From the NCBI GenBank assembly GCA_018057705.1, contig JAGPDF010000052.1, forward strand, positions 1 to 32,023: a stretch of DNA of 32,023 nucleotides. The letters are read 5' to 3'. Below the pieces are notes generated by a model. The model ran no database searches and was not told where the DNA came from. It saw only the letters and a list, made by a program, of their open reading frames with translations. Position numbers and translations under genes: made by a program. Shown here piece by piece: positions 5,069 through 20,212 of this stretch (the first letter of the stretch is position 1; each line of letters opens with the position of its first letter). Origin of the DNA: Thermoanaerobaculia bacterium (GTDB lineage: Bacteria; Acidobacteriota; Thermoanaerobaculia; Multivoradales; JAGPDF01).

Positions 5069-6715
5069 ATGAGCGGCGAGCGGGTCGGCGACTTTCCGCT
5101 GCTGGTCGAGACCCCGCCGCCAGGTCTCGTCGGGAGGTATTTCGGCACACAGAAGCACGTCCTCGGCCTGATCGGTGGCGGCATCACCGCCTGGGTGCGG
5201 AGCCGCACCCCGCCGTACCCGCGCGGCTACGGCCTGGCGCGCTTCGCCGCCTTCTGCGCGCGCCCCTTCCTCGACAAGAATCTCCTCGCGCTGCCGTTCC
5301 CGGTGCAGCTGCGCAAGCGCCTCGAGATCCTCGGGCCCACCTACATCAAGCTCGGGCAGGTGCTCTCGCTGCGCGAGGACATCCTGCCGGCCCAGATCAC
5401 CGACGAGCTCAAGAACCTCCTCGACCGCCTGCCGGCGGTGCCGCTCGACCGCCTGAAGGAGATCATCGAGAAGGACCTGAAGCGCCCGGTGATCGCGATG
5501 TTCTCCTGGATCGATCCCAATCCGCTCGGCTCGGCCTCGATCGGACAGGTGCACAAGGCGAAGCTCCTCGACGGCCGCGTGGTCATCGTCAAGGTCGTCA
5601 AGCCGGGCAATCGCGAGCTCCTGAAGCGCGACACGATCCTGCTCAATCTCCTCGGCCGCTTCCTCCAGACCTTCCTCGAGCGGCTGCAACCGCGCAAGGT
5701 CTTCAAGGAGTTCTCCGAGTACACCCTGCGCGAGCTCGATCTCACCCGGGAGGCCGACAACGCCGAGACCTTCGCCGCCAACTTCCGCGACATGCCGGAT
5801 GTCGTCTTCCCGAAGATCTTCCGCGAGTTCTCCGGCCGCGACGTTCTGTGCATGGAGTTCCTCGACGGCTACAAACCGACCGCGGCGGCGACGCAGGAGC
5901 TCGATCAGGAACAGCGCGCCCACCTGCTCGACCTCGGAGCCGCCTCGATCATCCGGATGCTCTACCGGGACGGCTTCTTCCATGCCGACCTCCACCCGGG
6001 GAACCTGATGATCCTGCCCGGACCCAAAGTCGGTTTCATCGACCTCGGCATGGTGGGCCGCTTCACCGAGGAGCTCAAGCGGTCGCTCATGTACTACTAC
6101 TACTGCCTGGTCATGGGCGACTCCGAGAACGCGGCGCGCTATCTCTCGATGGTGGCGCAACCCGGCCGCCGCGGCGACGTCGTCGGCTTCAGGAAGGAGG
6201 TCGAGGAGATTTGCCGGCGCTGGGCGAAGACCTCGAACTTCAAGGAGTATCCGCTCGCCCACCTGATCCTGCGCTCGGTGGCGCAGGGGGCGCGCTACGA
6301 CATGTACTTCCCCGTCGAAACGGTGTTGATGGTCAAGGCTCTGGTGACCTTCGAGGGTGTCGGCCAGATCCTGAACCCCGGTTTCGACGTGAAAGAGGTC
6401 TCGCAGAAGCACGTCAACGCGATCTTCCTCGAGCAGTTCTCGCCGTTCCGCCTGGCGAAAGAGGGCATGCGTGGCGCCCCCGAGCTCATCGAGGCGCTCT
6501 CGAAGGCCCCCATGCTCATCACCGAGGGCCTGCGCCTGCTCGAGTCGGCCCAGCACAAGCCACACGAGAATCCGTTCGCCGGCCTGAAGACGACCCTGCT
6601 CGCCGGCGCCTGCATCATCGCCGCGGCGATCCTCATCTCCTTCGGCCGCCCCTGGTACTACTACGCCCCCCTGCTGACTCTCGGCGGGCTGCTCGCCATC
6701 TGGCGCCGGCGCTAG
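5069..6715 (+). CDS. ABC1/UbiB-family atypical kinase-like membrane protein
   Basis: A 548-residue member of the UbiB/ADCK/AarF family, ATP-dependent proteins that support ubiquinone and other isoprenoid-lipid metabolism. Family marks in order: KxGQ (YIKLGQVLSLRED, near residue 93), the alanine-rich loop SASIGQVHKA, the VIVKVVKPG lysine, the EFLDG hinge, HADLHPGN (H305) and IDLG (D325, in place of DFG). Two hydrophobic segments close the protein (LLAGACIIAAAILISF and YYAPLLTLGGLLAIW), placing it in the inner membrane. The ATG at 5069 has a GGGGAAC site about 10 nt upstream. The open frame runs back into the HMG-CoA reductase gene, but that part is out-of-frame overlap without family similarity. 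Position directly after HMG-CoA reductase suggests a joint role in isoprenoid or quinone supply (inference). Confidence 0.87.
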   Translation: MSGERVGDFPLLVETPPPGLVGRYFGTQKHVLGLIGGGITAWVRSRTPPYPRGYGLARFAAFCARPFLDKNLLALPFPVQLRKRLEILGPTYIKLGQVLSLREDILPAQITDELKNLLDRLPAVPLDRLKEIIEKDLKRPVIAMFSWIDPNPLGSASIGQVHKAKLLDGRVVIVKVVKPGNRELLKRDTILLNLLGRFLQTFLERLQPRKVFKEFSEYTLRELDLTREADNAETFAANFRDMPDVVFPKIFREFSGRDVLCMEFLDGYKPTAAATQELDQEQRAHLLDLGAASIIRMLYRDGFFHADLHPGNLMILPGPKVGFIDLGMVGRFTEELKRSLMYYYYCLVMGDSENAARYLSMVAQPGRRGDVVGFRKEVEEICRRWAKTSNFKEYPLAHLILRSVAQGARYDMYFPVETVLMVKALVTFEGVGQILNPGFDVKEVSQKHVNAIFLEQFSPFRLAKEGMRGAPELIEALSKAPMLITEGLRLLESAQHKPHENPFAGLKTTLLAGACIIAAAILISFGRPWYYYAPLLTLGGLLAIWRRR

Positions 6716-6891
6716 GGCGCCGGCCAAGGTTGACTGACGGTCCCGCACTCAGATGTCCGGAACGCCGACACCGAGCGCGGAGAGGATCCAAAGAGCCGAA
6801 AGGGTGCCCATCCATTCCGAGTCTTGCAGCTGGATCCAGGTCCGTCCGGGACATCTCAATCTGTACAGACCGCAGGTCCCCGACCGATCGC
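6716..6891. other. Gene-poor junction between the ABC1 gene and the RHS/IS66 region
   Basis: These 176 bp follow the stop of the ABC1-family gene. They contain no convincing gene and no terminator-like hairpin with a T tract. One minus-strand frame ending at 6749 reads through a hydrophobic tail (MGTLSALWILSALGVGV), which could be another decayed membrane-protein fragment like the one at 6892-7110. It lacks a start with a ribosome site, so it is not called as a gene. This appears to be the edge of the accessory region. Confidence 0.4.
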
Positions 6892-7374
6892 TCAACGCCG
6901 CCGGCGCCAAGTCTCCAGGAAGGCCACACCAAGGACACCCAGTCCGAAACTCAGGAGCTTGTTCGCGATGAGTGGGGCGATCCAAGAGCCTCCCAATCGG
7001 ATTGTCCGATCTGGCCACTCCATCGAGACCCTGTTGCCCATCAGCGACTCCTCCATGACGAGACGCGGTTTCATTTGCGATCTCGGGTCATCGGGCGTAA
7101 GCTCGAGGCGCAGCGCGGAGCACGCATCATCGCGCCAAAGTGCAGCGAAGCGCCCGCGTTCGAGACGCTTGGCGTAGATGCACAGCCCGGTACCGTCCCA
7201 GAGCAGCACTTTCGCCCCCTGCCGCATCCGATTGACGAAGAGGTAGAGAGCGGCCGACAGCGGCTCGTGCTGCAGCTCGCGGCTGACCAGCGACGTCAGG
7301 CCATCGAAGCCCTTGCGCAGATCGGCTGGCGCGCCGAGGGCAAAGACCGAAACCTGCCGCGTCGAGCCGATCAC
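6892..7374 (-). pseudogene. Chimeric remnant: IS66 TnpB N-terminus fused to the tail of an immunity-like membrane protein
   Basis: The first ~85-88 codons (7374 to about 7110) match the IS66 accessory protein TnpB: the ADLRKGFDGL block, LYLFVNR, KVLLWDGTGLCIYAKRLERGRF and ALWRDD. TnpB then stops being recognisable, and the same frame continues as about 72 residues unlike IS66 proteins. This tail resembles the C-terminus of the membrane protein at 7852-8502: KPRLVMEESLMGNRVSMEW against RPKIVASRALFRTTVKVER, then a terminal membrane helix and a basic end (ETWRRRR against ARLRARAN). The simplest reading is that IS66 inserted into a second copy of that gene, or a deletion joined the two, leaving a chance in-frame fusion. 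The start is a GTG overlapping the tnpA stop (GTGA), normal for IS66. tnpC and the right IS end are missing. Confidence 0.72.
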
Positions 7375-7733
7375 GCGAGAACGCGCACCAGGCGCACCAC
7401 GCTCTCGAAGTCCAGGCCCTCGACGCGCACCGGGCCCACCGTCACCGCCATTGTCGAAGAGGTCGCAGGCGGCGCCGCTGGCGTCGCATCCGGCGCCAAC
7501 TTGACGCGGCGCAGCCGCCGCTTCGGCGCGGTCCTAAGCCACAGCGCCAAAGTTCGTGTGCGCACGCCCAGCTCCGCGGCGATCCGTGCCACCGGCACCC
7601 CCAGCGCACGACGCCCTCGCGCCAGGGCCACGACCTCTTCTCGAAACTCCGCTGAAAATCGCGTCGCCGTCGGATGCTCGCGATTCTCGAACCGCCGAGT
7701 CCGCGCGCGCACATCCCCACTCGTCTTGCTCAT
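7371..7733 (-). CDS. tnpA: IS66 family TnpA-like protein
   Basis: A 120-residue product with the helix-turn-helix region typical of IS66 OrfA: RFSAEFREEVVALARGR followed by VPVARIAAELGVRTRTLALW. A C-terminal segment (RVEGLDFESVVRLVRVL) is like the end of other IS66 TnpA proteins. IS66 TnpA is a small DNA-binding helper required for transposition along with TnpB and TnpC. The ATG at 7733 has GGGAGG 6 nt upstream; that site lies in a perfect 9-bp hairpin (7736-7759). An earlier in-frame start at 7802 would include the IS end and is less likely. The stop overlaps the tnpB start by 4 nt (GTGA), as is usual in this family. Confidence 0.82.
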   Translation of the reverse strand: MSKTSGDVRARTRRFENREHPTATRFSAEFREEVVALARGRRALGVPVARIAAELGVRTRTLALWLRTAPKRRLRRVKLAPDATPAAPPATSSTMAVTVGPVRVEGLDFESVVRLVRVLA

Positions 7734-7735
7734 CG

Positions 7736-7759
7736 TCAGCCTCCCTTTCTGGAGGCTGA
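7736..7759 (-). promoter_or_regulatory. Hairpin covering the tnpA ribosome-binding site
   Basis: A perfect inverted repeat, TCAGCCTCC - 6 nt - GGAGGCTGA, lies directly upstream of tnpA. On the minus-strand transcript the GGAGG of the 3' arm is the Shine-Dalgarno sequence, 6 nt from the ATG at 7733. Folding would hide it and lower transposase expression, a known way in which insertion sequences limit expression read in from outside. The repeat is seen directly; the regulatory effect is inferred. Confidence 0.55.
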
Positions 7760-7851
7760 GACTCCGGCTTTCTCGGGCCGCTAGCAACACGGGGTTGGGC
7801 AAGGAGTTACCGAATTCCGACCGGCGGTGAGAAGGCTAGGTTAGCCGACGC

Positions 7852-8502
7852 CTAGTTGGCTCGCGCTCGCAAGCGCGCCGCAAGCCGCAGGAGCATGACC
7901 CCGGCGATTCCCAGAATCCCCGCAGGAAATGGTACCTGCAGCAACGTTCCAAGAGTGGAGGTCGAAATGCTTGCGAATTCGCCTGCTCTTTCCACTTTGA
8001 CCGTCGTACGGAAGAGTGCCCTCGAGGCGACGATCTTTGGACGAACCAACTGTGCCGCAGCACCAAGACTCTTCGGCGAGATGCTCGTTGTGTCGCGAAC
8101 CGATCTGCGCCCACGACTATCGACCCGCTCGGATCGGTCGCCGCGCTCAATGTCCACCCGCAGGACGCCGTCGGCGACCTCCACGAGGCTGAACGCACCA
8201 CCGCTCGTGGGGACATTGAAGCCATAGGCGAAGGTGCCATCCACTCGGTACGCCTGTATTCGGCCGTATGGGCAAAGCGCTAGCAGCACGACATCCGAGT
8301 CCCGGCTCCAAGCTTCACCGCAGAGCTCCGAGAGCGGCAACTCGCGGGAGTCCACCGTCCCATCTAGATTTGCCTCCCGTGGAAGGAGAGTCAGAGCGAA
8401 ACCAGCCAAGAGAAGGAGCATCAAAAGTCCGCCGACGATGTAGCAGATGACGACCCCGACAACAGAGGCACCTGGACGTACTCTGCCTTCAAGAGCAGTC
8501 AT
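7852..8502 (-). CDS. Membrane protein, candidate immunity protein for the orphan RHS C-terminus
   Basis: I do not recognise a named family. The 216-residue product has an N-terminal membrane helix (about residues 12-36, VVGVVICYIVGGLLMLLLLAG), a beta-rich middle with many charged residues, and a second helix near the C-terminus (FPAGILGIAGVMLL) followed by a basic tail. This topology would place the central domain in the periplasm. The ATG at 8502 overlaps the stop of the orphan RHS gene as ATGA, implying translational coupling; a GTG at 8517 is the alternative. Being directly downstream of, and coupled to, an RHS variable C-terminus is the usual position of an immunity gene. A relative's tail survives at 6892-7110 beyond the IS66 remnant. 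Base composition is lower in GC than that of the house-keeping genes. Confidence 0.62.
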   Translation of the reverse strand: MTALEGRVRPGASVVGVVICYIVGGLLMLLLLAGFALTLLPREANLDGTVDSRELPLSELCGEAWSRDSDVVLLALCPYGRIQAYRVDGTFAYGFNVPTSGGAFSLVEVADGVLRVDIERGDRSERVDSRGRRSVRDTTSISPKSLGAAAQLVRPKIVASRALFRTTVKVERAGEFASISTSTLGTLLQVPFPAGILGIAGVMLLRLAARLRARAN

Positions 8503-11228
8503 GGGTTGCAGCCACACGAGTCGTCGGGACCTGGTCTCCTCCCATAGGGATCTTCGTCTGAGAAATCAAAGAGATCCTCGAGCCCATCCCAGGCGTCCCC
8601 GATCAGCTGACCCGCCCTCCGGACTGCCCCTGAAATAGGATCAAGCACGTTGTAGTCCCAGACTTTCGTCTGCGTCTCGGTAGAGAAGGCCCCGGCTCCC
8701 GGCGTTCCAAACTCTCCTCCCCAGTAGGTCTCTCCAGCGCCATCGACCCCAGGACCAGAGCGGGTCACGCCACCCGATGCCCAAGGCGTAGCTAGAGCCA
8801 GCCCCCCACCCTCGCCGCCATGGTCGGCGCCAGTTGGAGCGCCAGAAACTCCTACGGAGACGCCGTATCCCCTTCCCGCACCGAACGCCACGCCAGTGCC
8901 AGCAAAGGCGAAGACACTGCCCTCGGTATCGAGACCGACTCCAACGAATCCTGTTGCTCCCAATCCCGGACTTCCTCCCCATGCGCGGGTCCCGGACAAC
9001 TCGCAGTAGAGAGTTGCCAAACCCGTCGGATCCGCACTGTTCAGCGGATTCGAGCCCGAGTACTCGAAGAGGTTCGCCGCACGCGCTCGAAAGGCGAGAG
9101 GGTCTTTCGAAAGCCAACGCCCCTCTCGAGCAGAATAGTCGCGTGCGCCGAACCGGACCGTTGAGTGCTGATCGTCAGCGAGCCCACCAGCGAAACCAAA
9201 CGGCTGCCAGCCGGGACTTGTATCGGCTGCGACAATGCCCCACTCGTCAATATCGACATGTTGAACGACAGATCCAGTCGATGAGTTAACCACAAGCCTG
9301 GGACTCCCAAGGTGATCGTGAAGGACGCGATATACCTGTCCGCTTCGAATGATGAGGTCAGGGACATTCACCCGACTTGCGTAGACGAATCGAGAAACGA
9401 CGCTGCCATCATTGCCAACCTCGGCAGCAGGAGCGAGCTGACCCTGCCAGATCAAGCGGCCAGCTGGCACACCCTGGACGCTCCTGGAGATCCGACGGTT
9501 CTTCCCATCGACCACGTAGACGACCTGAGTCCCATCGGGAAGGTCAACCCTCACAAGATTTCCGAAAGCATCGTACTGAAACGTAGTGACCTCAGCGCCA
9601 TCAGTCTTCGTGAGCACCTCGCCGTTGGCGGTATAAGTGTACGCCGCGCCCGCGTAAGTGAGCATCCGATCCTGATCGTCGTAGGTGCCGGTTTCGGTGC
9701 CGCCGGGGGTGGTTTTCGACAGGCGGTTGCCGTTGAGGTCATAGTCGTAGTCGGCCTCGAGGATGCCGTCGATGGTGACGGTGTCGAGGCGGCCGGCGGG
9801 GTCGTAGCCGTACTCGTAAGTCTTCGTGACGCCCTGAATCATCTCGACCTTGGTCGTGATCCGACCCAGTCTGTCGCGCGTGTAGGTGGTTGTATAGATC
9901 GGAGTGCCCGAGACCGCGGCGCTCATCGTCGCGAGCTCACCGAACGCGGAGTAGGAGTAGTTCGTCATCACTACCCCAAGCGTCGTTCCGGTGAGGGATC
10001 CCGACTGCGGGTCGCGTGTCAGCGACATGTCGCCCGCCTGGATCACTAGGCCATCGTCGTCGTAGGCGTAGCTCACTGGATTCTCGCCGTTGACCGAGAT
10101 CGACGAGATCCGGAGGTCGTTGTCGTAGGTGCGCTCGACCGACCCCTCGACTTCGCCCGACCAGGTCGCGGCGGTTACGAGCGGCCCGTCCATCGTGTAC
10201 GAGAGCGTATTCCCTTCTGGCGTCTCCATCGAGGCGATATGCCCGGATACCGGATCGTAGGTGACCGTCGCAGCGCCGCGAGGTGAGGTGATCGAGGTCA
10301 GTCGCTGTGCGCTGTCGTAGCCGAGGGCGATCGTCTGTCCGTCCGGGCGCGTGATCATCGTCGGATTGCGGTCGAGGTTGTACTCGTACGTCGTTTCCGG
10401 CGGCCCCTGGCCGACCCCCGGCGGCGCATACTCCTCGGTCAGGTCGACCGGCGTGTACGAGAAACCATGGGCAGGCCTCCCCGGCGGCGTGAGCGAGGTG
10501 AGGTTTCCTTTGGGGTCCCAGGTGAATCCGACTGTTCGCCCGCCAGGAAGCGTCTGGCTCTGGACGCGGTTCGCGGCGTCGTAGGTGAAGGTTACCTCGC
10601 GCAGGAGCGGGTCAGTGATCGTGGAGACGCGGCCCAGCGGGTCGTATCCGAACTCGACTCTGCGCTGTTCCGCTCCAGCGCCGCGCACGATCGACTCCAG
10701 CCGACCGCGCGAGTCATAGGCGAAACTCGTTGGCAGGAGATTCGCCGCCTGGACTTCCGTCGGGCGCCCCAGATCGTCGATCACGGTCCGGCTCGCGCGC
10801 CCGAGCGGGCTCTCCCGCAGCCATTCATGCAGCGCCGCCTCGTAGGTCGCAGTATAGGTCCGCCCGTTGACCACGGTCGTCCGCTGTCGCGTCGCGAGGC
10901 TGAACGGATCCGGCGCGGTGACCGTAGCTTCCTCCGTCGTGTGGACCATCGACAGCAGCCCGCCGGGGGTCGAGAAGATCTGCTCGACCGGCCCGCCCGC
11001 CTGCGCTCCCCAGATCGGGTCGACTCCGCTCTGGCGCACGCTCACCGAGCCGTCGGAATGCACGGTACGCCGCCTGCCGTCGTTCCCGTCCACGGTGTAG
11101 GTCTGGATCGTCTGCCCCAGGTCGGCATGGACGGTATGCCAGCGTTTCCGACCGTTGCGCCAGCGCCAGACCGTGAACCGCAGGGTAGCCTCTCGGCCCG
11201 CGACCCTCGATGGTTTCCATTGGCTCAA
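8499..11228 (-). CDS. Orphan RHS/YD-repeat module with distinct C-terminus (N-terminally truncated copy)
   Basis: A 909-residue open frame that begins abruptly inside an RHS shell. From residue ~17 (RFTVWRWRNGR) it follows the large RHS protein at 12264-18395, nearly identical at first and diverging toward the end. It contains many YD repeats (GYDPLGRVSTITD, YDYDLNGNRLSKTT and similar) and the RHS core end (DHLGSPRLVV, RFGARDYSAREGRWLSKDP, DPTG). After DPTG comes an unrelated ~170-residue glycine-rich C-terminus ending DDSCGCNP. It has no signal peptide, no propeller and no N-terminal domains, so it is probably a stored alternative C-terminal cassette. The only start at its 5' end is TTG at 11228, overlapping the stop of the HExxH gene (TTGA), so weak coupled expression is possible. 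Toxic activity of the C-terminus is inferred from architecture only. Confidence 0.8.
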   Translation of the reverse strand: MSQWKPSRVAGREATLRFTVWRWRNGRKRWHTVHADLGQTIQTYTVDGNDGRRRTVHSDGSVSVRQSGVDPIWGAQAGGPVEQIFSTPGGLLSMVHTTEEATVTAPDPFSLATRQRTTVVNGRTYTATYEAALHEWLRESPLGRASRTVIDDLGRPTEVQAANLLPTSFAYDSRGRLESIVRGAGAEQRRVEFGYDPLGRVSTITDPLLREVTFTYDAANRVQSQTLPGGRTVGFTWDPKGNLTSLTPPGRPAHGFSYTPVDLTEEYAPPGVGQGPPETTYEYNLDRNPTMITRPDGQTIALGYDSAQRLTSITSPRGAATVTYDPVSGHIASMETPEGNTLSYTMDGPLVTAATWSGEVEGSVERTYDNDLRISSISVNGENPVSYAYDDDGLVIQAGDMSLTRDPQSGSLTGTTLGVVMTNYSYSAFGELATMSAAVSGTPIYTTTYTRDRLGRITTKVEMIQGVTKTYEYGYDPAGRLDTVTIDGILEADYDYDLNGNRLSKTTPGGTETGTYDDQDRMLTYAGAAYTYTANGEVLTKTDGAEVTTFQYDAFGNLVRVDLPDGTQVVYVVDGKNRRISRSVQGVPAGRLIWQGQLAPAAEVGNDGSVVSRFVYASRVNVPDLIIRSGQVYRVLHDHLGSPRLVVNSSTGSVVQHVDIDEWGIVAADTSPGWQPFGFAGGLADDQHSTVRFGARDYSAREGRWLSKDPLAFRARAANLFEYSGSNPLNSADPTGLATLYCELSGTRAWGGSPGLGATGFVGVGLDTEGSVFAFAGTGVAFGAGRGYGVSVGVSGAPTGADHGGEGGGLALATPWASGGVTRSGPGVDGAGETYWGGEFGTPGAGAFSTETQTKVWDYNVLDPISGAVRRAGQLIGDAWDGLEDLFDFSDEDPYGRRPGPDDSCGCNP
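9555..11181 (-). repeat. Direct repeat of RHS core, copy in the orphan module
   Basis: Aligned with 13251-14877 at a constant offset of 3696 bp without gaps at the points checked. By eye, positions 10309-11028 are identical to 14005-14724 (720 bp), while both flanks carry frequent substitutions. The repeat breaks sharply at 11181, upstream of which the sequence belongs to the HExxH gene. Homology continues below 9555 at lower identity into the RHS core end. Confidence 0.9.
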
Positions 11229-11767
11229 GATCGCTTTGCCGATTGCTTCGCCTTGGCGTTCGAGAACCAGCGAAGTGCCCGGGCCAAGGGTCGCGCGGGG
11301 ATCACCAGCACGCCATACCTCCGACGAAATGCGACGCGAGTCAACTCCTTGCGCCAGCGCTCGGCGTGAAGCTCTTTGTCGCCGGAGACCGGTTCGATGG
11401 AGCGGACGATGTGATGACCCAACTCATGGTAGAAAACCCTTGCGAGGAACAGCTCGCGCAGGAACCCCATACGCCAAGTCCACTCCGGACGTCCATTGAA
11501 AATCGCATCGACATAGAGCTCGATCGAGGCCGTTGCCGTGCTCGTCCCAGCGCGGTACGAACCCAATAGAGATCTTCCTGGCCTAGAGGTGTGTCGCTTT
11601 CGTTCGCGCGCGACCAGTTCGGAGGCCTCGACGAGCACGACCCTCTTCAACCCCGCAAGGTACTTGGCGTCTGACACCTGAATGAGACGAACAAGACTTT
11701 TCCGAGAGAGGTCGTAAATCCGCCACCCCTTGGCAAACACCACTACTTCAGGCAACGCTATCGCCAA
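11225..11767 (-). CDS. HExxH protein of unknown function (metallopeptidase-like)
   Basis: A 180-residue product with a zinc-site motif HELGHH (residues 114-119) and nearby acidic residues E132 and E136 (KELHAERW) as possible third ligand. The preceding segment SIELYVDAIFNGRPEW and following helix suggest a small gluzincin-like fold, and the C-terminus is strongly basic. It has no signal peptide. The start is uncertain: the frame opens at a TTG (11767) directly after an in-frame stop, with AGAAGGA too close upstream, so the gene could be 5'-truncated. It lies between an immunity candidate and the orphan RHS module, and its stop overlaps the orphan module's possible TTG start. It could be a cargo gene of the toxin locus, a second immunity or processing factor, or a passenger; I cannot decide between these. 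Confidence 0.6.
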   Translation of the reverse strand: MAIALPEVVVFAKGWRIYDLSRKSLVRLIQVSDAKYLAGLKRVVLVEASELVARERKRHTSRPGRSLLGSYRAGTSTATASIELYVDAIFNGRPEWTWRMGFLRELFLARVFYHELGHHIVRSIEPVSGDKELHAERWRKELTRVAFRRRYGVLVIPARPLARALRWFSNAKAKQSAKRS

Positions 11768-11830
11768 TCCTTCTGGAAGTGATCATCGGGCTCGGATCTG
11801 GGTGCTCGGCGCGGGTCGCCGATCGCCGGC

Positions 11831-12241
11831 TCACTCAGCAAGCCACTCTCCGGATTCGAGCGCCTCGCCTTCCAGGCGCATGGCACCGCTGGCACATTGG
11901 ACTTTGATCTTGGCGCCTGAAAAGAGCGAAAATTCAACCCGGCGCACCGGAACCTCTTCAGGAAGGTCCGGCCAGACTGACTGCTCTACATCTCCAGAGA
12001 CTATCGTCGCATCCATCACATAGTTGTCGCTTGCCGCCCAGGACCCCGTCACCTCGATCGACTCGCAGCCAGCAAGCGCGAGCGTCCCATTGAAGACCTC
12101 GCGAGTGAATCTGGCGTCGCGGAGGTGTCGGAATCTCGAGACTCCTTCGAGCGTGAATTCACAGATGCAGCCGACACTGATCGTCACCAAGCGAATTGTC
12201 GCATCGTGAAGTTCAAAGAAGTCTCGTTCCGGGATGGCCAT
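11831..12241 (-). CDS. Candidate immunity protein for the full-length RHS C-terminus
   Basis: A 136-residue soluble protein with no signal peptide or membrane helix. The start region FFELHDATIRLVTISVGCICEFTLEGV is a pattern (F-x-LHDA-x-I, then an alternating-hydrophobic strand) that I associate with small beta-rich proteins encoded after polymorphic toxins; the rest also alternates strands (TLALAGCESIEVTG, VRRVEFSLFSG). I assign no named family. The ATG at 12241 has GGAG at 5-nt spacing and lies 22 bp after the RHS stop; a TTG at 12277 would overlap the RHS gene. Its place directly downstream of the variable C-terminus is the main reason for the immunity call. GC is visibly lower than in the RHS core. 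Confidence 0.6.
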   Translation of the reverse strand: MAIPERDFFELHDATIRLVTISVGCICEFTLEGVSRFRHLRDARFTREVFNGTLALAGCESIEVTGSWAASDNYVMDATIVSGDVEQSVWPDLPEEVPVRRVEFSLFSGAKIKVQCASGAMRLEGEALESGEWLAE

Positions 12242-12263
12242 TGGATCTCCAGGCTGCGAATTC

Positions 12264-15200
12264 TCATCGGCTGCCAAAAAGTAGCGATGTGCCGAAAGCT
12301 AAGGTCGCCGGATCGTCTGCGACGCCGAGACCTCCAGTTAGAAAGTCCTCGATTATCGTTGCAGCGATAATTGCTCCTCCCAACGCTGGCAACGCATAGG
12401 CCGGCAGCTGCGGAGGAATAGCGTACATGTCAGGATCCTTCACAGCATCCATTTCAACAGGTTCACCTTCAGGGCCGGGACAGGCATCGGGAATGTCATC
12501 ACCTGGATCGAGAGGGCGGTGCCTTGGGCCTTCGCCGCCAGGGTAGTGATGCCAGTGGTCTCGACCCTGATGTCCGGGTTCCCCAGGCCTCCCGCGATGA
12601 AAATCCAAGATGTCGCCGTCCGGGCCCAGGAATCGATCTCCTCCTGGATGCCGATGGGTTGGATCGACGTTCCAGCCGCCTGGCAAACCGGTGGGGTTCG
12701 CGGGTAACTTCCAGTAACCCGTCTGATCCTGGAAGTCAATTGGATCCTGGGAGGAGTATCCGTACCCGTTCGTATCTCCGCCGAGAAAGCCCCGCGCATC
12801 GCGTGCCCACCAACGAGAAGAGCGGGAATCGAAGTCTCTAGCTCCGAAACGAACCAGCTCAGTGTCAGGATCCCAAAGCCCTCCGGCCCATCCGAAAGGT
12901 TGGAAGCCCGGGTTAGTGTCGATGGACTTCAACCCCCAGGCATCGTAGTCGATCCTCTCCCCGATGCTCCCAGCCGAAACCTCAACCACCAGACGTGGGC
13001 TACCCAGATGATCGGTGAGGATTCTGTAGCTAGCCCCATCTTTAGTGAAGTAGTCCGGGACATTCTCCTTCGAAGCGTAGATGAATCGGCTGACAGGGTC
13101 GCCATTGATGTCCAGACTCGCAATGGGAGAAAGCTGGCCCTGCCAGAGTAGGCCGCTTTCGAGAACGCCGTCGACCTTCTTGCCGATCCGGCGGCTTCTG
13201 GCGTCGACGATGTACTGGATGTCGGTCCCAGTTGGGAGAGCCGCGTTGAGAAGATTTCCGAAGGTGTCGTAGCTGAAGCCACTCGTCTCGGTGCCCTCGA
13301 TCTTCGAGAGCATTTCCCCGTTGGCGGTGTACGTGTAGCTAGCCCCTGCGTAGGTGAGCATCCGGTCCTGGTCGTCGTAGGTGCCGGTTTCGGTGCCGCC
13401 GGGGGTGGTTTTCGACAGGCGGTTGCCGTTGAGGTCGTAGTCGTAGTCGGCTTCGATGATGCCGTCGATGGTGACGGTGTCGAGGCGTCCGGCCGGGTCG
13501 TAGGCGTAGTCGCAGGTCTTGGTCTCGCCTTCGATCATCTCGACTTTGGTCGTAATGCGACCGAGCTTGTCGCGCGTATAGGTGGTCGCATAGATCGGGG
13601 TGCCCGAGACCGCGGCGCTCATCGTCGCGAGCTCGCCGAACGGGGAGTAGGTGTAGCTCGTCGTGACCACGCCCAGCGTGGTGCCGGTCAGAAAGCCGGT
13701 CTGCGGGTCTCGTGTCAGTGACATGTCGCCCGCCTGGATCAGTAGGCCATCGTCGTCGTAGGCGTAGCTCACTGGATTCTCTCCGTTGACCGAGATCGAG
13801 GAGATCCGGAGGTCGCTGTCGTAGGTGCGCTCCACCGACCCCTCGATCTCGCCCGACCAGGTTGTGGCGGTCACCAGAGGGCCATCCATCGTGTACGAGA
13901 GGGTATTTCCTTCTGGCGTCTCCATCGAGGCGACGTGCCCGGATACCGGATCGTAGGTGACCGTCGCGGTGCCCCGTGGCGAGGTAATCGAAGTCAATCG
14001 CTGCGCGCTGTCGTAGCCGAGGGCGATCGTCTGTCCGTCCGGGCGCGTGATCATCGTCGGATTGCGGTCGAGGTTGTACTCGTACGTCGTTTCCGGCGGC
14101 CCCTGGCCGACCCCCGGCGGCGCATACTCCTCGGTCAGGTCGACCGGCGTGTACGAGAAACCATGGGCAGGCCTCCCCGGCGGCGTGAGCGAGGTGAGGT
14201 TTCCTTTGGGGTCCCAGGTGAATCCGACTGTTCGCCCGCCAGGAAGCGTCTGGCTCTGGACGCGGTTCGCGGCGTCGTAGGTGAAGGTTACCTCGCGCAG
14301 GAGCGGGTCAGTGATCGTGGAGACGCGGCCCAGCGGGTCGTATCCGAACTCGACTCTGCGCTGTTCCGCTCCAGCGCCGCGCACGATCGACTCCAGCCGA
14401 CCGCGCGAGTCATAGGCGAAACTCGTTGGCAGGAGATTCGCCGCCTGGACTTCCGTCGGGCGCCCCAGATCGTCGATCACGGTCCGGCTCGCGCGCCCGA
14501 GCGGGCTCTCCCGCAGCCATTCATGCAGCGCCGCCTCGTAGGTCGCAGTATAGGTCCGCCCGTTGACCACGGTCGTCCGCTGTCGCGTCGCGAGGCTGAA
14601 CGGATCCGGCGCGGTGACCGTAGCTTCCTCCGTCGTGTGGACCATCGACAGCAGCCCGCCGGGGGTCGAGAAGATCTGCTCGACCGGCCCGCCCGCCTGC
14701 GCTCCCCAGATCGGGTCGACTCCGTTCTGGCGCACGCTCACCGAGCCGTCGGGATGCACGGTACTCCGCCTTCCGTCGTTCCCGTCCACCGTGTAGGTCT
14801 GGATCGTCTGGCCCAGGTCGGCATGGACGGTATGCCAGCGGTTCCGCCCGTTGCGCCAGCGCCAGACCGTGAACCGCTCGACGCGATCCTCGGGACTGGT
14901 GTACTTCACGGTGTACTGGGGAAAGAAGCGATTCGGTTCGAGCATGAGCCGGAGGAGCTTCTTCTCGCCGAGAACCGCATCCGTTTCGCCCTCGGCACGG
15001 CCGAGGCCGTTGAAGGAGAACGTCGTCGAATGCTCGTTCGGGTCGGTGACGCTCGTCAAGAGGCCCAGAAGACTCATCTCCGTCGACCAGGAGTGGCCGG
15101 CCTCGTTCTCTATACGCTGAAGGTAGCCGTTCGCGTCCAGCGTCACGCTCGTCGACTGTCCATAGGGGCCGACGATGGCCGTCGGGTCTCCGCTCGGCGT

Positions 15201-18200
15201 GCGAACGACTGAGGTGACGTTGCCGTTCCCGTCGGTGATCGTCGAGAGATATCCGCCCGCCGTGTACCCGAATTCCAGGAGCGTCGCTCCGGTCAGGCCA
15301 TGGCGCGTTCTCAAGTGCCGCCCCCGGGAGTCGAAGATGAACACTTGCGATCCATCGCCATTCGGGATGCGGTACTCGTTCGTTGCCTGGAGCGGGAGCT
15401 CTCCGCCGACGCGCAGGACCGAATGGGCTCCGCGATCGGAGACGAGGACTTCGCCTTCGGGTCCGAGGACGACGCCGCCCAGGTCGATGAGGTAGACCTG
15501 AAGGGCGAGATCTCCGGGCGGAGAGCCACCCGGGTCGTCCCCGACCCCGGCGACAGTGTCGATGATGCCGGAGGCGGTCACGCGCCGGATACGGTGGTTC
15601 CCGGCGTCCGCGATCCAGAAACTCCCGTCTTCTCGAGCGGCGATACCTCCCGGTCCGAGGAGCGCGGCGCTCGTCGCCGGCCCGCCATCTCCCGAATAGC
15701 CCGAAGCCGCCGAACCTGCGACGGTGCGGATGACTCCCGAGGGTCCGATCCTGCGGATCCGGTCGTTCGCAGTGTCAGCGATCAGCAGCTCCCCCGAAGG
15801 AAGCAAGGACAGTCCGCTCGGAGACGCAAGTTCCGCGAGACTGGCGGGTCCACCGTCTCCAGAAAAGCCGAAATCGCCCGTGCCGGCAGCGGTCGTGATG
15901 ATGCCGTCGGTTCCCACATGGCGAATCCGATTGGCGTCGCGCTCGGCGAGATAGAAACCTCCTCCTGGGAGGCTCGCGACCGCGACCACGCCAAAGAGCC
16001 GGGACTCCGTGGCCGAGCAGTCGTCGCAGAATCCCTCTCCGGCAATCGAACCGGGCAGGTAGCAAATGCCGGCCACCGTCTCGATCGACGCGTCGTCATT
16101 CACACGCCGCACACACCGCCAATCGGCGATGAGCAGCCGGCCTCTCGCGTCGAGCGCGACTCCCGACGGATAGACGAGCGGAGCCTCCGCCGCCGGGCCG
16201 CCTTCGCCGCAACCTTGCTGTTCGCAGGTGCTGCCGTTTCCGGCGACGGTCACGATAGTCCCGTCCGGAAAGACCCGGCGCACCCGAAAGGCGTTCGGGT
16301 CGGCAATGTAGACGCTGCCGTCGCTACCCATAGCGAGTCCATCGGGAGCTTCGAGCGTGGCCTGGCCCGCGGGGCCACCGTCGCCCGAGCTCCCCGGGCC
16401 TCCATCCCCGGCGAACCTCGGCGCCACGACGCCGGCATCCCTCGCGAAGCGTCGAGAGCCGTCACCGGTGAGCAACGTCCTGGTGCGCGGGTTGTAGCGG
16501 TGGTGGACATCGAACGACCAGCCGCCGAGCTTTTCGCCCTTGATGTCCCAGCCCCCGGCGAGCAGGCCCGCGATCTGTCCGAACGTGAAGCGCTTGGTGA
16601 GGCGCAGCACGACCTGTCTGGGTGCCTCGTTCCAGGAACCAACGATCGCGCTCCCCGGCCCCGAGATGCGCGCGAAGGCACGCGTCCACGAGTCCTTGGT
16701 CGAGTAGTAGACGAGGGGATAGAAGTACCGGACCTCGATCCAGCCGGGAGTCTCGCTGTGGAGGGGTCGACCGAAGCGGTCGTTGCCGTCCCACGTGATG
16801 TCCACGGTGAGATTCGGGGCTGGATTCTCGAATGAGGCTCCGAAGGGACGACCGGCGAAGAAGCCACCGGCCTCGACTCGAGCGAGGCCAGGCGGTAGCG
16901 AGCTCCCCGTCACGCGCATCGCAATCCGGTTCGGGAAAGCGCGCGCCTTGACGCGATCGCTCGAATACCTGAGGGCGAAGGGAATTCCCGTGAGCCGGAG
17001 CGATTCCCCGAGAATCTGGTTCTCGCACTCGAGCACCGAGCCGAACTTCCGGCACGGATCCCACTCCTCCGGCGCCCCGTCGTCCGGGTTCGAATCCGGC
17101 AGCGGGTCGGGTGGCGCCGGCGGATTTTGCCCGTCGTCCGGGTCGCCGGTGAACTCTGGGTCCGGTGGCGGCGCGGCGTCTTCCGGCGGGCCCCACGGGT
17201 GGTTGAAATCCCAGGGAGTGAAGTGATCGACCCGGACACGCCAGAGCTCTTGCCCCGGCTCGTAGAGCAGGGCGACCCGAACCAGTTCCTCCGCGGAGAT
17301 TCCGAGCGCCTCCAGTGCCTGTGCGTCCGCCGGTACCCCAAGGCCCTCGATGTCGAGGCTCGCGACCCCGGCACTCTCGCTCAGCACCTGGATGACGAGA
17401 CCGTTTTCCGAGGGCACCCACTCCGCGCGCTTGCGGTCGAAGTAGCCCGACGGGATGGGTGCCCCGACCGGAAACTCGAGGTAGTTTTCGAGGTAGACCG
17501 AAACAGGCTGACTCAGAACGACGGAATCCGCTCCTGCGGCCAGCGCCTCGTCCGCTGAGAGCTCGACGGCGTAGGTGTAAGCGGTGTTGTCCGCAAGCGG
17601 CGCCGGCATCGCCAGAAGACCGCGCTCGCCGACGGTGTATTCCGTAGCGCGAACGTGAAGCGAACTCTGAGGGATGAGCGAGCCGTCCGGCATCAGGAGA
17701 TCGGCGAGCGTCCCGCCTGGGAACATCAGGGTTGCCCGCCGCGACCCCTCGGTGTCGCTCTCGACCTCGCCACGGGCGATCTGCATCTCCGTCGCGTTCG
17801 AAGTGACCTCCGTCGACTCGGGATCGAGGCGGATCAGAACGACGTCCTCGGCCTCTCCATAGTCTGCGCCTGGAGCTTCGACCGTCCTGAACGCCGGCAG
17901 GAAGCCGTATTTCGCGAAGACCAGGATGATGGCGCCGCCGCCGTTCACGGCCAGATCGAAGACTCCGTCCGCTCGCGAGTAGGTGAATCCGAGCTGAGGC
18001 TCCTCGAACGCCGAAATCCGGACGCCTCGCAGCGCCGACCCGTCGATCCCGAGTACTCGCCCGCGCAGGAACGAGGCTAGCCTCGCCTCGATGGCGCCTG
18101 GGACGACGCCGATCTGAACCGGGTCGCTGGCTTCCCACAGAAAGCGGTTCGCTTCGAACACATCTGCAGCGACGGTCGGATCGTAGGGCGTGGCGATGAC

Positions 18201-18395
18201 GCCGGGGTCGGGTGGCAAGGCGGTGCCTGGTGGCTCGCCGACGGCTTGGTCCCACTCCGTGAGGTTGCCTGATTCGAAGCCGTCGGCGAAGACGAGCTCC
18301 AGTCCGGCGCGCACCGGCGAACCTGCTTCTCCCTCCGCCGCAGCTGCGAGTCCGAAGGCGAGCGCGAGCAAGGTGACCGTGAGTCTGGATCTCAA
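12264..18395 (-). CDS. Exported teneurin-like NHL-RHS/YD-repeat protein with variable C-terminus (putative polymorphic toxin)
   Basis: About 2043 residues. Order: signal peptide (RSRLTVTLLALAFGLAAAA); the ADGFESGNLTEW motif; a carboxypeptidase-regulatory-like beta domain (about 108-170, starting LRGRVLGIDGS); further beta-rich modules; a Pro/Asp-rich linker (about 400-445); an RHS entry domain; six NHL blades (about 670-1005) with SGDGGPA and IADxxNxRIRRV motifs; YD repeats to about 1850; the core end DHLGSPRLVV...RFGARDF; then a variable C-terminus of about 150 residues rich in His, Gly, Asp and Pro (GRDHWHHYPGG), ending in a hydrophobic stretch. NHL next to a YD shell is the arrangement of animal teneurins. 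In bacteria such shells enclose C-terminal toxins. I prefer the TTG at 18395, with GGGAGGGG just upstream and an ideal signal peptide; ATG 18497 is the alternative. The C-terminal activity is unknown. Confidence 0.84.
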   Translation of the reverse strand: MRSRLTVTLLALAFGLAAAAEGEAGSPVRAGLELVFADGFESGNLTEWDQAVGEPPGTALPPDPGVIATPYDPTVAADVFEANRFLWEASDPVQIGVVPGAIEARLASFLRGRVLGIDGSALRGVRISAFEEPQLGFTYSRADGVFDLAVNGGGAIILVFAKYGFLPAFRTVEAPGADYGEAEDVVLIRLDPESTEVTSNATEMQIARGEVESDTEGSRRATLMFPGGTLADLLMPDGSLIPQSSLHVRATEYTVGERGLLAMPAPLADNTAYTYAVELSADEALAAGADSVVLSQPVSVYLENYLEFPVGAPIPSGYFDRKRAEWVPSENGLVIQVLSESAGVASLDIEGLGVPADAQALEALGISAEELVRVALLYEPGQELWRVRVDHFTPWDFNHPWGPPEDAAPPPDPEFTGDPDDGQNPPAPPDPLPDSNPDDGAPEEWDPCRKFGSVLECENQILGESLRLTGIPFALRYSSDRVKARAFPNRIAMRVTGSSLPPGLARVEAGGFFAGRPFGASFENPAPNLTVDITWDGNDRFGRPLHSETPGWIEVRYFYPLVYYSTKDSWTRAFARISGPGSAIVGSWNEAPRQVVLRLTKRFTFGQIAGLLAGGWDIKGEKLGGWSFDVHHRYNPRTRTLLTGDGSRRFARDAGVVAPRFAGDGGPGSSGDGGPAGQATLEAPDGLAMGSDGSVYIADPNAFRVRRVFPDGTIVTVAGNGSTCEQQGCGEGGPAAEAPLVYPSGVALDARGRLLIADWRCVRRVNDDASIETVAGICYLPGSIAGEGFCDDCSATESRLFGVVAVASLPGGGFYLAERDANRIRHVGTDGIITTAAGTGDFGFSGDGGPASLAELASPSGLSLLPSGELLIADTANDRIRRIGPSGVIRTVAGSAASGYSGDGGPATSAALLGPGGIAAREDGSFWIADAGNHRIRRVTASGIIDTVAGVGDDPGGSPPGDLALQVYLIDLGGVVLGPEGEVLVSDRGAHSVLRVGGELPLQATNEYRIPNGDGSQVFIFDSRGRHLRTRHGLTGATLLEFGYTAGGYLSTITDGNGNVTSVVRTPSGDPTAIVGPYGQSTSVTLDANGYLQRIENEAGHSWSTEMSLLGLLTSVTDPNEHSTTFSFNGLGRAEGETDAVLGEKKLLRLMLEPNRFFPQYTVKYTSPEDRVERFTVWRWRNGRNRWHTVHADLGQTIQTYTVDGNDGRRSTVHPDGSVSVRQNGVDPIWGAQAGGPVEQIFSTPGGLLSMVHTTEEATVTAPDPFSLATRQRTTVVNGRTYTATYEAALHEWLRESPLGRASRTVIDDLGRPTEVQAANLLPTSFAYDSRGRLESIVRGAGAEQRRVEFGYDPLGRVSTITDPLLREVTFTYDAANRVQSQTLPGGRTVGFTWDPKGNLTSLTPPGRPAHGFSYTPVDLTEEYAPPGVGQGPPETTYEYNLDRNPTMITRPDGQTIALGYDSAQRLTSITSPRGTATVTYDPVSGHVASMETPEGNTLSYTMDGPLVTATTWSGEIEGSVERTYDSDLRISSISVNGENPVSYAYDDDGLLIQAGDMSLTRDPQTGFLTGTTLGVVTTSYTYSPFGELATMSAAVSGTPIYATTYTRDKLGRITTKVEMIEGETKTCDYAYDPAGRLDTVTIDGIIEADYDYDLNGNRLSKTTPGGTETGTYDDQDRMLTYAGASYTYTANGEMLSKIEGTETSGFSYDTFGNLLNAALPTGTDIQYIVDARSRRIGKKVDGVLESGLLWQGQLSPIASLDINGDPVSRFIYASKENVPDYFTKDGASYRILTDHLGSPRLVVEVSAGSIGERIDYDAWGLKSIDTNPGFQPFGWAGGLWDPDTELVRFGARDFDSRSSRWWARDARGFLGGDTNGYGYSSQDPIDFQDQTGYWKLPANPTGLPGGWNVDPTHRHPGGDRFLGPDGDILDFHRGRPGEPGHQGRDHWHHYPGGEGPRHRPLDPGDDIPDACPGPEGEPVEMDAVKDPDMYAIPPQLPAYALPALGGAIIAATIIEDFLTGGLGVADDPATLAFGTSLLFGSR
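13251..14877 (-). repeat. Direct repeat of RHS core, copy in the full-length gene
   Basis: Partner of 9555-11181. Positions 14005-14724 form the tract I read as identical to 10309-11028. Above 14877 the full-length gene continues with more YD repeats and the NHL propeller, which the orphan copy lacks. Recombination between the two repeats in the chromosome would delete 3696 bp and swap the orphan C-terminus onto the full-length N-terminus in frame. Confidence 0.9.
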
Positions 18396-18682
18396 GACCC
18401 CTCCCAACCTGAAGTGAAATCGAAGTCGGCTGCCGGAGGAACGGGCCCAGTCGGAAGCATCTTCGGACCTTCGCGAGGCGAGGATCCAGTATTCCATACA
18501 CGAACCGGAGCCCAGGCGCGACCCTGCGCCGCGGTCGAAAAGTGATTCGCCAACCTCGGAGCCTTGATCTGAGCGCAGCCGTCGCTCCTCGCAGAGCGAC
18601 AGTTGTGCGGTCCCGGGCAATTCCACGGCTTGAAGTCGAACTTGAATCTTCAGGTCGCCGACGTCCTTCGGCTCGGTTTCCG

Positions 18683-20212
18683 CTACCTTCGAGAAGCTGC
18701 CGTGCTGAGCGCTTCGAATTCGGCGTGGAAGCCGTCGACGATGCGGTCGGGGTCGGGGATGAGGCCGGCGTCGGTGCCGACGCCCATGCGGACGCCGCCG
18801 TTGTACGAGAGGATCGAGACACCGAGCCCGAGGTGACCCGCCTGGGGCACCCAGAAGTAGAGATCGGTGAGCGCCTGGCCGGCGAAGTAGACCGTCTGCT
18901 TGGGGCCGGGGACGTTGGTGAAGACCGCCGTCGCCTTGGTGCCGAAGATCGCCAGCATGATCGAGTGAATGAACTGCGGCAGGTAGCCCGCCGCCTGGAG
19001 GAGCGAGAAGACCACCAGCGGCTCGGCGGAGCGCTTGAGCGCCGCCGAGCGGCGCCGGAACTCCTCCAGCCGCTGGAGCGGGTCGGCGATACCGACCGGC
19101 ATCTTGAGGAACATGAGCCCGAAGCGGTTGCCCATCTCCGCCATCTCGGCGAGCGGCCGCAGGTTCACCGGCATCGCGGCGCGCAGCCCGAGCGACTCCG
19201 GCGGCGTGCCGAACTTGAGCAGGTAGCGCCGCAGGCTCCCGGCCATGGCCGTGTTGAGAACGTCGTTGATCGTGCCGCCCAGTCGCTTGCCGACCTCGCG
19301 CACCTCGTCGAGATCGAGACGCGCGGTCCAGGCGACCCGTTTGTGCACCCCGAGCTCGCCGCGCAAGGGAGTCGCCGGCTCGCTCGCGCTGGCGAGCAGC
19401 GAGGCGAGTGCTGCGGCCGAGCCGAGGGTGCGCAGCAGCGGGTTCACCCTCTCGAACGCCTCGACCGGCGCGAGCATGAGACGCAGGGTCTCCGGCATCA
19501 CCTTTTCGAGCGCTTTCTTCACCGCGCCGAGGCTCTCGTCGGCAGGATGCAGCAGGAGCTCGAGGAACGGATTGACGATCTCGTTCCGGTGGCCACCGTG
19601 CCCAGAATGCGCGCCGCGCCCATGAGCACCGCGGTGCCGGGGAGAATCGGCATGTTCGATGTGCCCGACACCGGCGCCGTGGCGGGTGAGATCGGTGAGC
19701 GCCAGGATGACCAGCATCAGGGCGACGCCGTCGCCGATCGCATGGTGCACGCGACCGAACAGCACCGTGCCGCCCTGGTGCCCGTGCAGCAGATGGAACT
19801 GCCAGAGCGGATGAGCGCGGTCGAACGCCTGCGACAGGTGTTTCTCGATCGTCGCCGCGAGCGCCGCGTCGTCGCCGGGCGCCGGGATGCGCTCCTCGAC
19901 GAGGTGGCGGTGGAGATCGAAGTGGGCGTCGTCCGTCCAGACCAACTCGCCGAAATTCGAGTCGTCGCGCGCCACCCGCTGTCCGAAGCGGCGGATCTTC
20001 GCCAGACGCTCCGAGAACGGCTTCGCCGCCTGCTCCCAGGTGATCTCGCCGGCGAGCGGCAGGACGCCATGAATATGCATGAGATTCGTCGCATCGTCCA
20101 TCCGCAGCCAGGCGATGTCGACAGCGGTGAGAGGGGTCCCCCGCTCGCCGCGCCTCAGAGGCTGCGGCTGCCGGTACCGGCGTTCGTGCGGATGTTTCTG
20201 CTTCCGGGCCAT
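18683..20212 (-). CDS. Wax ester synthase / diacylglycerol acyltransferase (WS/DGAT)
   Basis: A 509-residue bifunctional O-acyltransferase that makes wax esters or triacylglycerol from acyl-CoA at the membrane or lipid-body surface. The catalytic motif HHAIGDG (H156, H157, D161) is intact. Typical family blocks are the N-terminal LTAVDIAWLRMDDATNLMHIHG and the C-terminal NDVLNTAMAGSLRRYL, VNLRP, and FTNVPGP followed by LGLGVSILSYNGGVRMGVGTD. The ATG at 20212 has no clear ribosome site, but it fits the family length. A stretch of about 35 residues after LALTDLT (about 19583-19690) is His/Gly-rich and unlike the family. The +1 frame there reads more naturally (SGTSNMPILPG, TAVLMGAARILG), so two compensating frameshifts are likely. 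The genomic neighbourhood, with PHA-granule genes nearby, fits carbon-storage metabolism. Confidence 0.9.
   Translation of the reverse strand: MARKQKHPHERRYRQPQPLRRGERGTPLTAVDIAWLRMDDATNLMHIHGVLPLAGEITWEQAAKPFSERLAKIRRFGQRVARDDSNFGELVWTDDAHFDLHRHLVEERIPAPGDDAALAATIEKHLSQAFDRAHPLWQFHLLHGHQGGTVLFGRVHHAIGDGVALMLVILALTDLTRHGAGVGHIEHADSPRHRGAHGRGAHSGHGGHRNEIVNPFLELLLHPADESLGAVKKALEKVMPETLRLMLAPVEAFERVNPLLRTLGSAAALASLLASASEPATPLRGELGVHKRVAWTARLDLDEVREVGKRLGGTINDVLNTAMAGSLRRYLLKFGTPPESLGLRAAMPVNLRPLAEMAEMGNRFGLMFLKMPVGIADPLQRLEEFRRRSAALKRSAEPLVVFSLLQAAGYLPQFIHSIMLAIFGTKATAVFTNVPGPKQTVYFAGQALTDLYFWVPQAGHLGLGVSILSYNGGVRMGVGTDAGLIPDPDRIVDGFHAEFEALSTAASRR

Follow-up and report, generated by a model that had tools for sequence, protein, structure and literature searches.

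Analysis of a 32,023-nucleotide stretch of DNA from a Thermoanaerobaculia bacterium (contig JAGPDF010000052.1 of assembly GCA_018057705.1, hereafter the window) revealed a gene for a full-length teneurin-like protein (TLP), designated here as the parent, which is followed on the same strand by an orphan cassette consisting of a fragment of the same shell and a different C-terminal tip. Quite probably, the locus encodes a polymorphic toxin of teneurin-like build that keeps a displaced tip in reserve, its C-termini being exchanged by the C-terminal displacement known from the rhs genes of enterobacteria. The domain architecture, the family, the orphan, the unrelated tips, the recent recombination, the island status of the locus and the recurrence of orphans behind other TLPs are directly supported, and the DNA exchanged between the main gene and the spare-tip fragment suggests how such toxins swap their warheads.

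The parent TLP and its orphan cassette

The parent frame is open from position 18626 to 12264 on the minus strand, and the GTG at 18398 is taken as the probable start because the alignment of relatives sets in at about residue 75-79 of the 18626 frame. The parent comprises the following features (window positions).

12264-18398, minus strand: parent gene, full-length TLP, by reading frame, homology, Pfam and structure model
18336-18398, minus strand: predicted Sec signal peptide, SPI-like and with no lipobox Cys, MLRSRLTVTLLALAFGLAAAA, judged by eye from the sequence
17835-18086, minus strand: TTR-like domain, Pfam TTR_TEN1-4, residues 181-264, E 1.3e-19
17055-17834, minus strand: stretch equivalent to the TIP domain in bacterial TLPs (borders approximate), by unbroken profile alignment to residues 369-1306 of 9ifo/9pt5
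16359-17054, minus strand: FN-plug (borders approximate), with Gly529-Ser530 as the TLP cleavage site and a Cys at Ser-5, by alignment with relatives
15384-16337, minus strand: NHL propeller of six blades, Pfam TEN_NHL E 3e-30 and AlphaFold2 model
12717-15248, minus strand: YD/RHS shell ending in the aspartyl-type motif DARG-X20-DQTG, Pfam TEN_YD-shell E 5e-31 and model
12264-12716, minus strand: CT1, the variable C-terminus of the parent, 150 aa, unrelated to the tip of the orphan (CT2), by sequence comparison

The description of the TLP family dates from February 2026 (PMC13018210). In that study the tips were located inside the shell, some of them being shown to be toxic with a matching immunity protein; the immunity gene lies downstream, and in 96% of TLPs a TIP domain stands upstream of the FN-plug. 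Cleavage was assigned to a Gly-Ser pair in the FN-plug, which in BiTLP is G723/S724 with C719, and to paired Asp motifs about 20 residues apart at the end of the shell (PMC13018210). Both autoproteolysis motifs are carried by the parent, and its cleavage is predicted; the Gly and Ser of the FN-plug are invariant or nearly so in the aligned relatives.

The Pfam teneurin models match the parent in teneurin order (TTR_TEN1-4, TEN_NHL, TEN_YD-shell). The profile of the pre-shell part, built from the parent and 57 relatives, aligned with the TLP solved by cryo-EM (9ifo/9pt5) in a single stretch over residues 369-1306 with E = 0 and with animal teneurins at E about 1e-119, while the shell profile aligned with the TLP (residues 1308-2146), again in one stretch, at E 5.7e-267 and with teneurin-3 at about 1e-121, followed by Rhs effectors of the type VI secretion system (T6SS) at 1e-77 or weaker. 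The Pfam TIP model had no match in the parent in the Pfam scan, and the TIP assignment rests on the profile alignment, where the full-length TLP aligns without a break and animal teneurins, which have no TIP, align best only from about profile position 496. In the AlphaFold2 model the shell (pLDDT about 95) matches the solved closed shells of TLP and teneurins, with Z 38.0 and a root-mean-square deviation (rmsd) of 1.6 Å over 818 residues against 9ifo and about 2.5 Å over 811 residues against teneurins. The N-terminal model contains six NHL blades; its global fit to 9ifo in Foldseek was poor (rmsd 13.6 over 604 columns), probably due to differing domain orientations, and this part was compared by sequence profile in place of superposition. 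By every sequence and fold criterion tested the parent is a member of the TLP family. The assignment as a T6SS-type Rhs effector was rejected, since the N-terminus is composed of TTR, TIP and FN-plug with a predicted signal peptide and the shell is closest to TLP; no T6SS families were found among the scanned proteins of the window, to which this search was confined. No adhesion or lipoprotein module was seen in the parent N-terminus.

The first-pass annotation of the locus, which described a full-length gene with signal peptide, NHL blades, YD shell and variable C-terminus, agrees with these data, the signal peptide again being judged by eye, and its coordinates and domain order were right when compared with the frames, the Pfam order and the alignment of the orphan. 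The teneurin resemblance that it proposed is a true homology, as TTR, TIP region, FN-plug, NHL and YD-shell are ordered as in the solved TLP and, minus TIP, as in animal teneurins; the six-bladed propeller and the closed YD shell, named beforehand as a test, are both present in the predicted structures. The teneurin-like type is retained with the correction that the parent falls in the already described TLP family (PMC13018210), and the architecture is now extended by the FN-plug, the TIP region, the two cleavage motifs and a small open reading frame (ORF) behind each tip.

In reading direction the locus is ordered as parent-CT1, ORF1, ORF2, orphan shell-CT2, ORF3 and IS66 remnants. Its parts behind the parent are listed below.

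8499-11228, minus strand: orphan TLP cassette, a 909-aa frame of 3' shell fragment and CT2, by frame and alignment to the parent
9021-11192, minus strand: orphan shell fragment, homologous to parent residues about 1246-1970 and ending in DPLA-X20-DPTG, by alignment
8499-9020, minus strand: CT2, the variable Gly-rich C-terminus of the orphan, 173 aa, by sequence comparison
11831-12277, minus strand: ORF1, 148 aa, which overlaps the stop codon of CT1 and by its position is a candidate immunity gene for that tip
11225-11767, minus strand: ORF2, 180 aa, with a HELGHH zincin-like motif, by motif and by relatives behind other TLP C-termini
7852-8517, minus strand: ORF3, 221 aa, with hydrophobic stretches at both ends, overlapping the CT2 stop, candidate immunity gene for CT2 by position

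The orphan aligns with the parent to the end of the shell over 2,163 bp; at 84% DNA identity, chance cannot account for the match, and after the DPxG region CT1 and CT2 are unrelated. No signal peptide, TTR, FN-plug or NHL was found in it by Pfam scan. The cassette therefore has all the marks of an orphan rhs-CT: a 3' core fragment, an unrelated tip, its own small ORF, a position downstream of a full-length gene and no delivery domains.

The TTG start of the orphan overlaps the ORF2 stop by 4 nt (TTGA). Relatives of ORF2 lie directly behind TLP tips in two genomes (G007 and G021) and also stand alone; because they adjoin TLP tips, ORF2 is probably, judging from its sequence relatives, the second gene of a tip module, and proteins of this type may serve as an immunity protein, a detached toxin or an accessory protease. 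Loci with such relatives of the small HELGHH zincin-like protein ORF2 are L035, L046, L149, L145 and L146. A distant relative of CT2 is the C-terminus of a non-TLP RHS protein (G011:C39), with 36% identity over 129 aa. No convincing family match was obtained for CT1, CT2, ORF1 and ORF3 in Pfam or NCBIfam, and no homologue of CT1, ORF1 and ORF3 was found among 71 other genomes of the order. By their position, by the unrelated tips and by analogy with the TLP and Rhs literature, ORF1 and ORF3 may encode immunity proteins.

Recombination in the shell and the proposed exchange of tips

The parent and the orphan share a tract of perfect identity, defined by DNA alignment.

14005-14724, minus strand: 720-bp perfectly identical tract, parent copy
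10309-11028, minus strand: 720-bp perfectly identical tract, orphan copy, 3,696 bp downstream and in the same frame

Within this tract there are no changes in 239 codons, and synonymous divergence (dS) is 0; in the adjoining 234 codons dS is 0.45 with a ratio of nonsynonymous to synonymous divergence (dN/dS) of 0.11, and nearer the tips dS is saturated. Protein identity toward the tips declines accordingly from 239/240 to 212/235, 84/160 and finally 9/33. In 5,000 permutations of the parent/orphan differences the longest identical run was 208, and contig C38 of this genome, which carries three RHS paralogues in tandem at 86-90% DNA identity, served as a control and had no identical run longer than 83 bp. 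The 720-bp tract between diverged flanks is the footprint of a recent recombination or conversion. The GC content at third codon positions (GC3) is 0.84-0.86 for the part of the shell that the two copies share and 0.88-0.92 for four genes in the flanks or nearby, and it drops to 0.53-0.69 in the two 3' shell ends, the two tips and ORF1-3; therefore both tip modules, together with about 195 codons of the 3' shell, look imported by their composition.

The displacement described for rhs genes gives a possible order of events: an incoming circle with a core fragment and a tip recombines in the core, and the old tip is pushed downstream (PMC2935791); in Salmonella an orphan tip is loaded on the main gene when the two recombine across 522 bp of 95% identity (PMC3967940). 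According to the mechanism proposed here, the parent would be exported by the Sec route, its YD/RHS shell being plugged by the FN-plug and bearing the six-bladed NHL propeller; conserved aspartyl-type cleavage would free CT1 inside the shell, and the small downstream ORF would protect the producer cell. The orphan, with its shell fragment, alternative tip CT2 and own small ORF, would be silent as a delivered weapon because it has no export or plug domains. An incoming shell-plus-tip module would have recombined in the shell-coding DNA, shunting the earlier tip downstream, and the identical tract would mark the place of the latest crossover or conversion of this kind. As the two copies are in the same frame and 3,696 bp apart, a crossover would yield an in-frame parent-CT2 fusion: such a reverse crossover would put CT2 on the exported chassis and release CT1, ORF1 and ORF2 as a 3,696-bp circle. 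In this scheme export, cleavage and tip switching are inferred, and toxicity, delivery and immunity roles are taken from the TLP and Rhs literature.

Tentatively, and against our own expectation, TLPs might even be actively switching, with ongoing recombination keeping the tract identical and with single cells excising the 3.7-kb circle and redeploying the chassis with the stored tip; if this were true, the bacterial relatives of an animal receptor would run a tip-switching system.

Several points weigh against the displaced spare tip. No recognised toxin fold is present in any C-terminal domain here, and CT1 was left without a resolved fold in the AlphaFold2 model (pLDDT about 25). The evidence of recombination is the assembled sequence, in which no recombinant molecule was seen, and the genome is a draft of 177 contigs, where a repeat region could be imperfectly assembled. 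When both 3' shell segments were compared with relatives by identity, neither was clearly native, so that either tip may be the older one, and the low dN/dS may predate the copy's becoming an orphan.

Orphan cassettes in relatives and in known systems

Scanning genome contigs yielded 123 relatives; 80 were kept, many of them spanning TTR to shell, and some contigs are counted under two locus numbers among the collected loci. An orphan shell-tip cassette lies no more than 1.1 kb downstream in 5 of the 70 complete TLP parents, the window parent included; this number leaves aside a match of 35% identity that lies 6 kb beyond the parent of L089. At one locus (L076, 13984-21112) four orphans stand in a row behind one parent, of which three have small ORFs and complete tips that differ from one another, and the fourth is truncated; another truncated orphan occurs at L080. 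Orphans with no parent on the contig stretch were found in four relatives (G003, G002, G019 and G028). In the parent/orphan pairs identity is usually highest at the 5' end and drops toward the tip, and a long identical tract is present only in the window pair. The tips at 66 parents are hypervariable (69-210 aa), and in the relatives inspected they vary from gene to gene, each being directly followed by a different small ORF.

These results bear on the remaining claims of the first-pass annotation. The second copy on the same strand, beginning inside the YD shell and ending in another C-terminus, was confirmed by alignment from about parent residue 1248, and its interpretation as an orphan rhs-CT is supported by the mosaic DNA identity with the parent, the adjacent immunity-like ORFs and the orphans behind other TLPs. 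Invariant C-termini, named beforehand as refuting, were not seen among the relatives, whose tips vary. The orphan as an alternative cassette stands, while switching between the cassettes would be an extrapolation from the sequence; the account of the locus is further extended by the 720-bp tract, the island boundaries and the orphan cassettes behind TLPs elsewhere.

Two tips in this set carry recognisable features. The third tip of the L076 array has, judged by eye, the look of an L,D-transpeptidase (YkuD-like), and the tip after position 8257 (minus strand) at L040 (G014:C1) contains a HELVHW zincin-like motif, with a short orphan tip starting at DPSG about 2 kb downstream.

With the bacterial TLPs, represented by BiTLP of Bacillus inaquosorum (PDB 9ifo/9pt5; PMC13018210), the locus shares TTR, TIP, FN-plug, NHL, YD-shell and a small variable C-terminus, as well as a pair of Asp motifs spaced by 20 residues where the shell ends and a gene directly downstream of the tip; it differs in the adjoining orphan shell-tip cassette with a recent recombination tract. 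The orphan rhs-CT/rhsI modules of Enterobacteriaceae (PMC2935791, PMC3150448, PMC3967940) are similar in having a core fragment of variable length, an unrelated tip and their own small ORF, in forming arrays of several members and in sharing core sequence that permits recombination. However, the chassis there is an enterobacterial Rhs and here a Sec-type teneurin-like protein of Acidobacteriota, the window orphan retains about 2.2 kb of shell, and the shared identity is 100% over 720 bp compared with the above-mentioned 95% over 522 bp in Salmonella rhs (PMC3967940). The orphan cdiA-CT/cdiI arrays of contact-dependent inhibition systems (PMC3150448) are likewise detached toxin-immunity modules arrayed behind a full-length gene, but their chassis and secretion route are unrelated.

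In animal teneurins, which take part in the wiring of nerves, TTR, FN-plug, NHL and YD-shell follow one another as they do in the parent. An animal teneurin proper was nevertheless rejected, as no intracellular and transmembrane N-terminus, EGF repeats or C-terminal ABD/Tox-GHH were found by Pfam scan, and the parent has instead a TIP region, cleavage motifs and an interchangeable C-terminus. A bacterial TLP is the presumed ancestor of animal teneurins, whose closest bacterial relatives bear a different C-terminus, and the authors of the TLP study suggested that the chassis and the C-terminal domain may have separate origins by acquisition (PMC13018210). In the window locus the chassis and tip of a TLP have been parted and recombined, and the footprint of this in the DNA is recent; several lineages keep spare tips behind their TLPs, so that tip exchange on a teneurin chassis becomes open to testing. 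The main text of the TLP study (PMC13018210) does not mention orphans, tandem arrangement, cassettes or recombination, and no other work joining TLPs and orphans was found in the literature search. The TLP family, orphan tips and the displacement mechanism are each known separately; by the literature searched, their combination is the new part.

The whole locus is an accessory element with the following borders and remnants.

6716-18682, no strand: accessory island of 11,967 bp with TLP, orphan cassette, small ORFs and IS66 remnants, by an empty site in a congener
6892-7802, minus strand: IS66 remnant at the island edge, TnpA-like and TnpB ORFs with no tnpC, by Pfam/NCBIfam scan

The island sits between convergent ABC1-kinase and WS/DGAT genes. 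In the congener (G001:C234) the kinase end, equivalent to window position 6715, is followed 11 bp on by a match to window 18683-18755, the 3' end of WS/DGAT, and therefore the whole TLP locus is an island of presence and absence; in G007:C103 the two genes are also adjacent and convergent. The GC content of the island is 0.641 and that of its flanks 0.686 and 0.679.

Alternative readings and further observations

The alternative that survives best, still an unlikely one, is that the orphan is a decaying partial duplicate or a displacement leftover, kept since its downstream ORF immunises against CT2-bearing kin. The missing signal peptide, TTR, FN-plug and NHL, the truncated orphans at L076 (fourth copy) and L080 and the congener without the whole island all fit such decay, but the orphan has an intact frame, retains the cleavage motif at the shell end and shows recent homogenisation with the parent.

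Somewhat less probable is an internally expressed toxin-antitoxin module, in which the orphan has its own start coupled to ORF2 (TTGA), would work within the cell that makes it and has ORF3 as its antitoxin. Salmonella orphan rhs toxins are indeed driven by internal promoters (PMC7043789), and the operon-like spacing, with ORF2 overlapping the TTG start by 4 nt and ORF3 overlapping the stop, agrees with this, as do 909 open codons and dN/dS of 0.11 over 234 codons. However, the promoter scan gave no convincing match (two weak matches against 1.1 expected; promoter and terminator matches alike were at chance level), and a module of this kind does not predict a recent conversion tract with the parent.

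The 720-bp identity might also be an artefact of a short-read assembler merging two similar shells, the true copies being different. Such merging would suit the 177-contig draft and the many TLP contigs of relatives that end inside the shell as with repeats, the locus search being biased to the 5' half. It is improbable in view of the sharp tract ends, the diverged flanks and the neighbouring diverged segments kept apart; by reasoning, an assembly graph offers just one path through a direct repeat with a single loop, so that spanning it is not suspicious, and parent plus orphan occur also in four independently assembled genomes.

Least credible of all is an adhesion or signalling surface protein as in animals, with the variable ends as recognition modules: the teneurin architecture allows it and the TLP authors leave a signalling role open (PMC13018210), but it is opposed by the hypervariable tips at 66 parents, by the different small ORFs behind the inspected tips and by the experimentally toxic tips of other TLPs with matching immunity protein (PMC13018210).

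Some minor observations concern related genes. The three tandem RHS genes of G000:C38 (L031, 6453-12284 and 13325-19207, minus strand; L032, 4771-7986, minus strand) have shells 86-90% identical and unrelated C-termini; two are full length (1,943 and 1,960 aa) and one is cut by the contig end, the second ending in a matrixin-like HEIGHVLGLHH domain. Two TLP genes are interrupted in the shell region, possibly by insertions, at L070 (12767-13242, 0.5 kb) and L117 (12377-15489, 3.1 kb). TLP-like proteins spanning TTR to shell were also present in records labelled outside the six phyla reported for TLPs, the labels being those of metagenome-assembled genome records: Verrucomicrobia (L053, L054, L056, L068, L097), Chloroflexi (L058, L059, L064, L121), Gemmatimonadetes (L063, L074, L100, L114), Planctomycetes (L062, L081) and Sulfuricurvum (L119).
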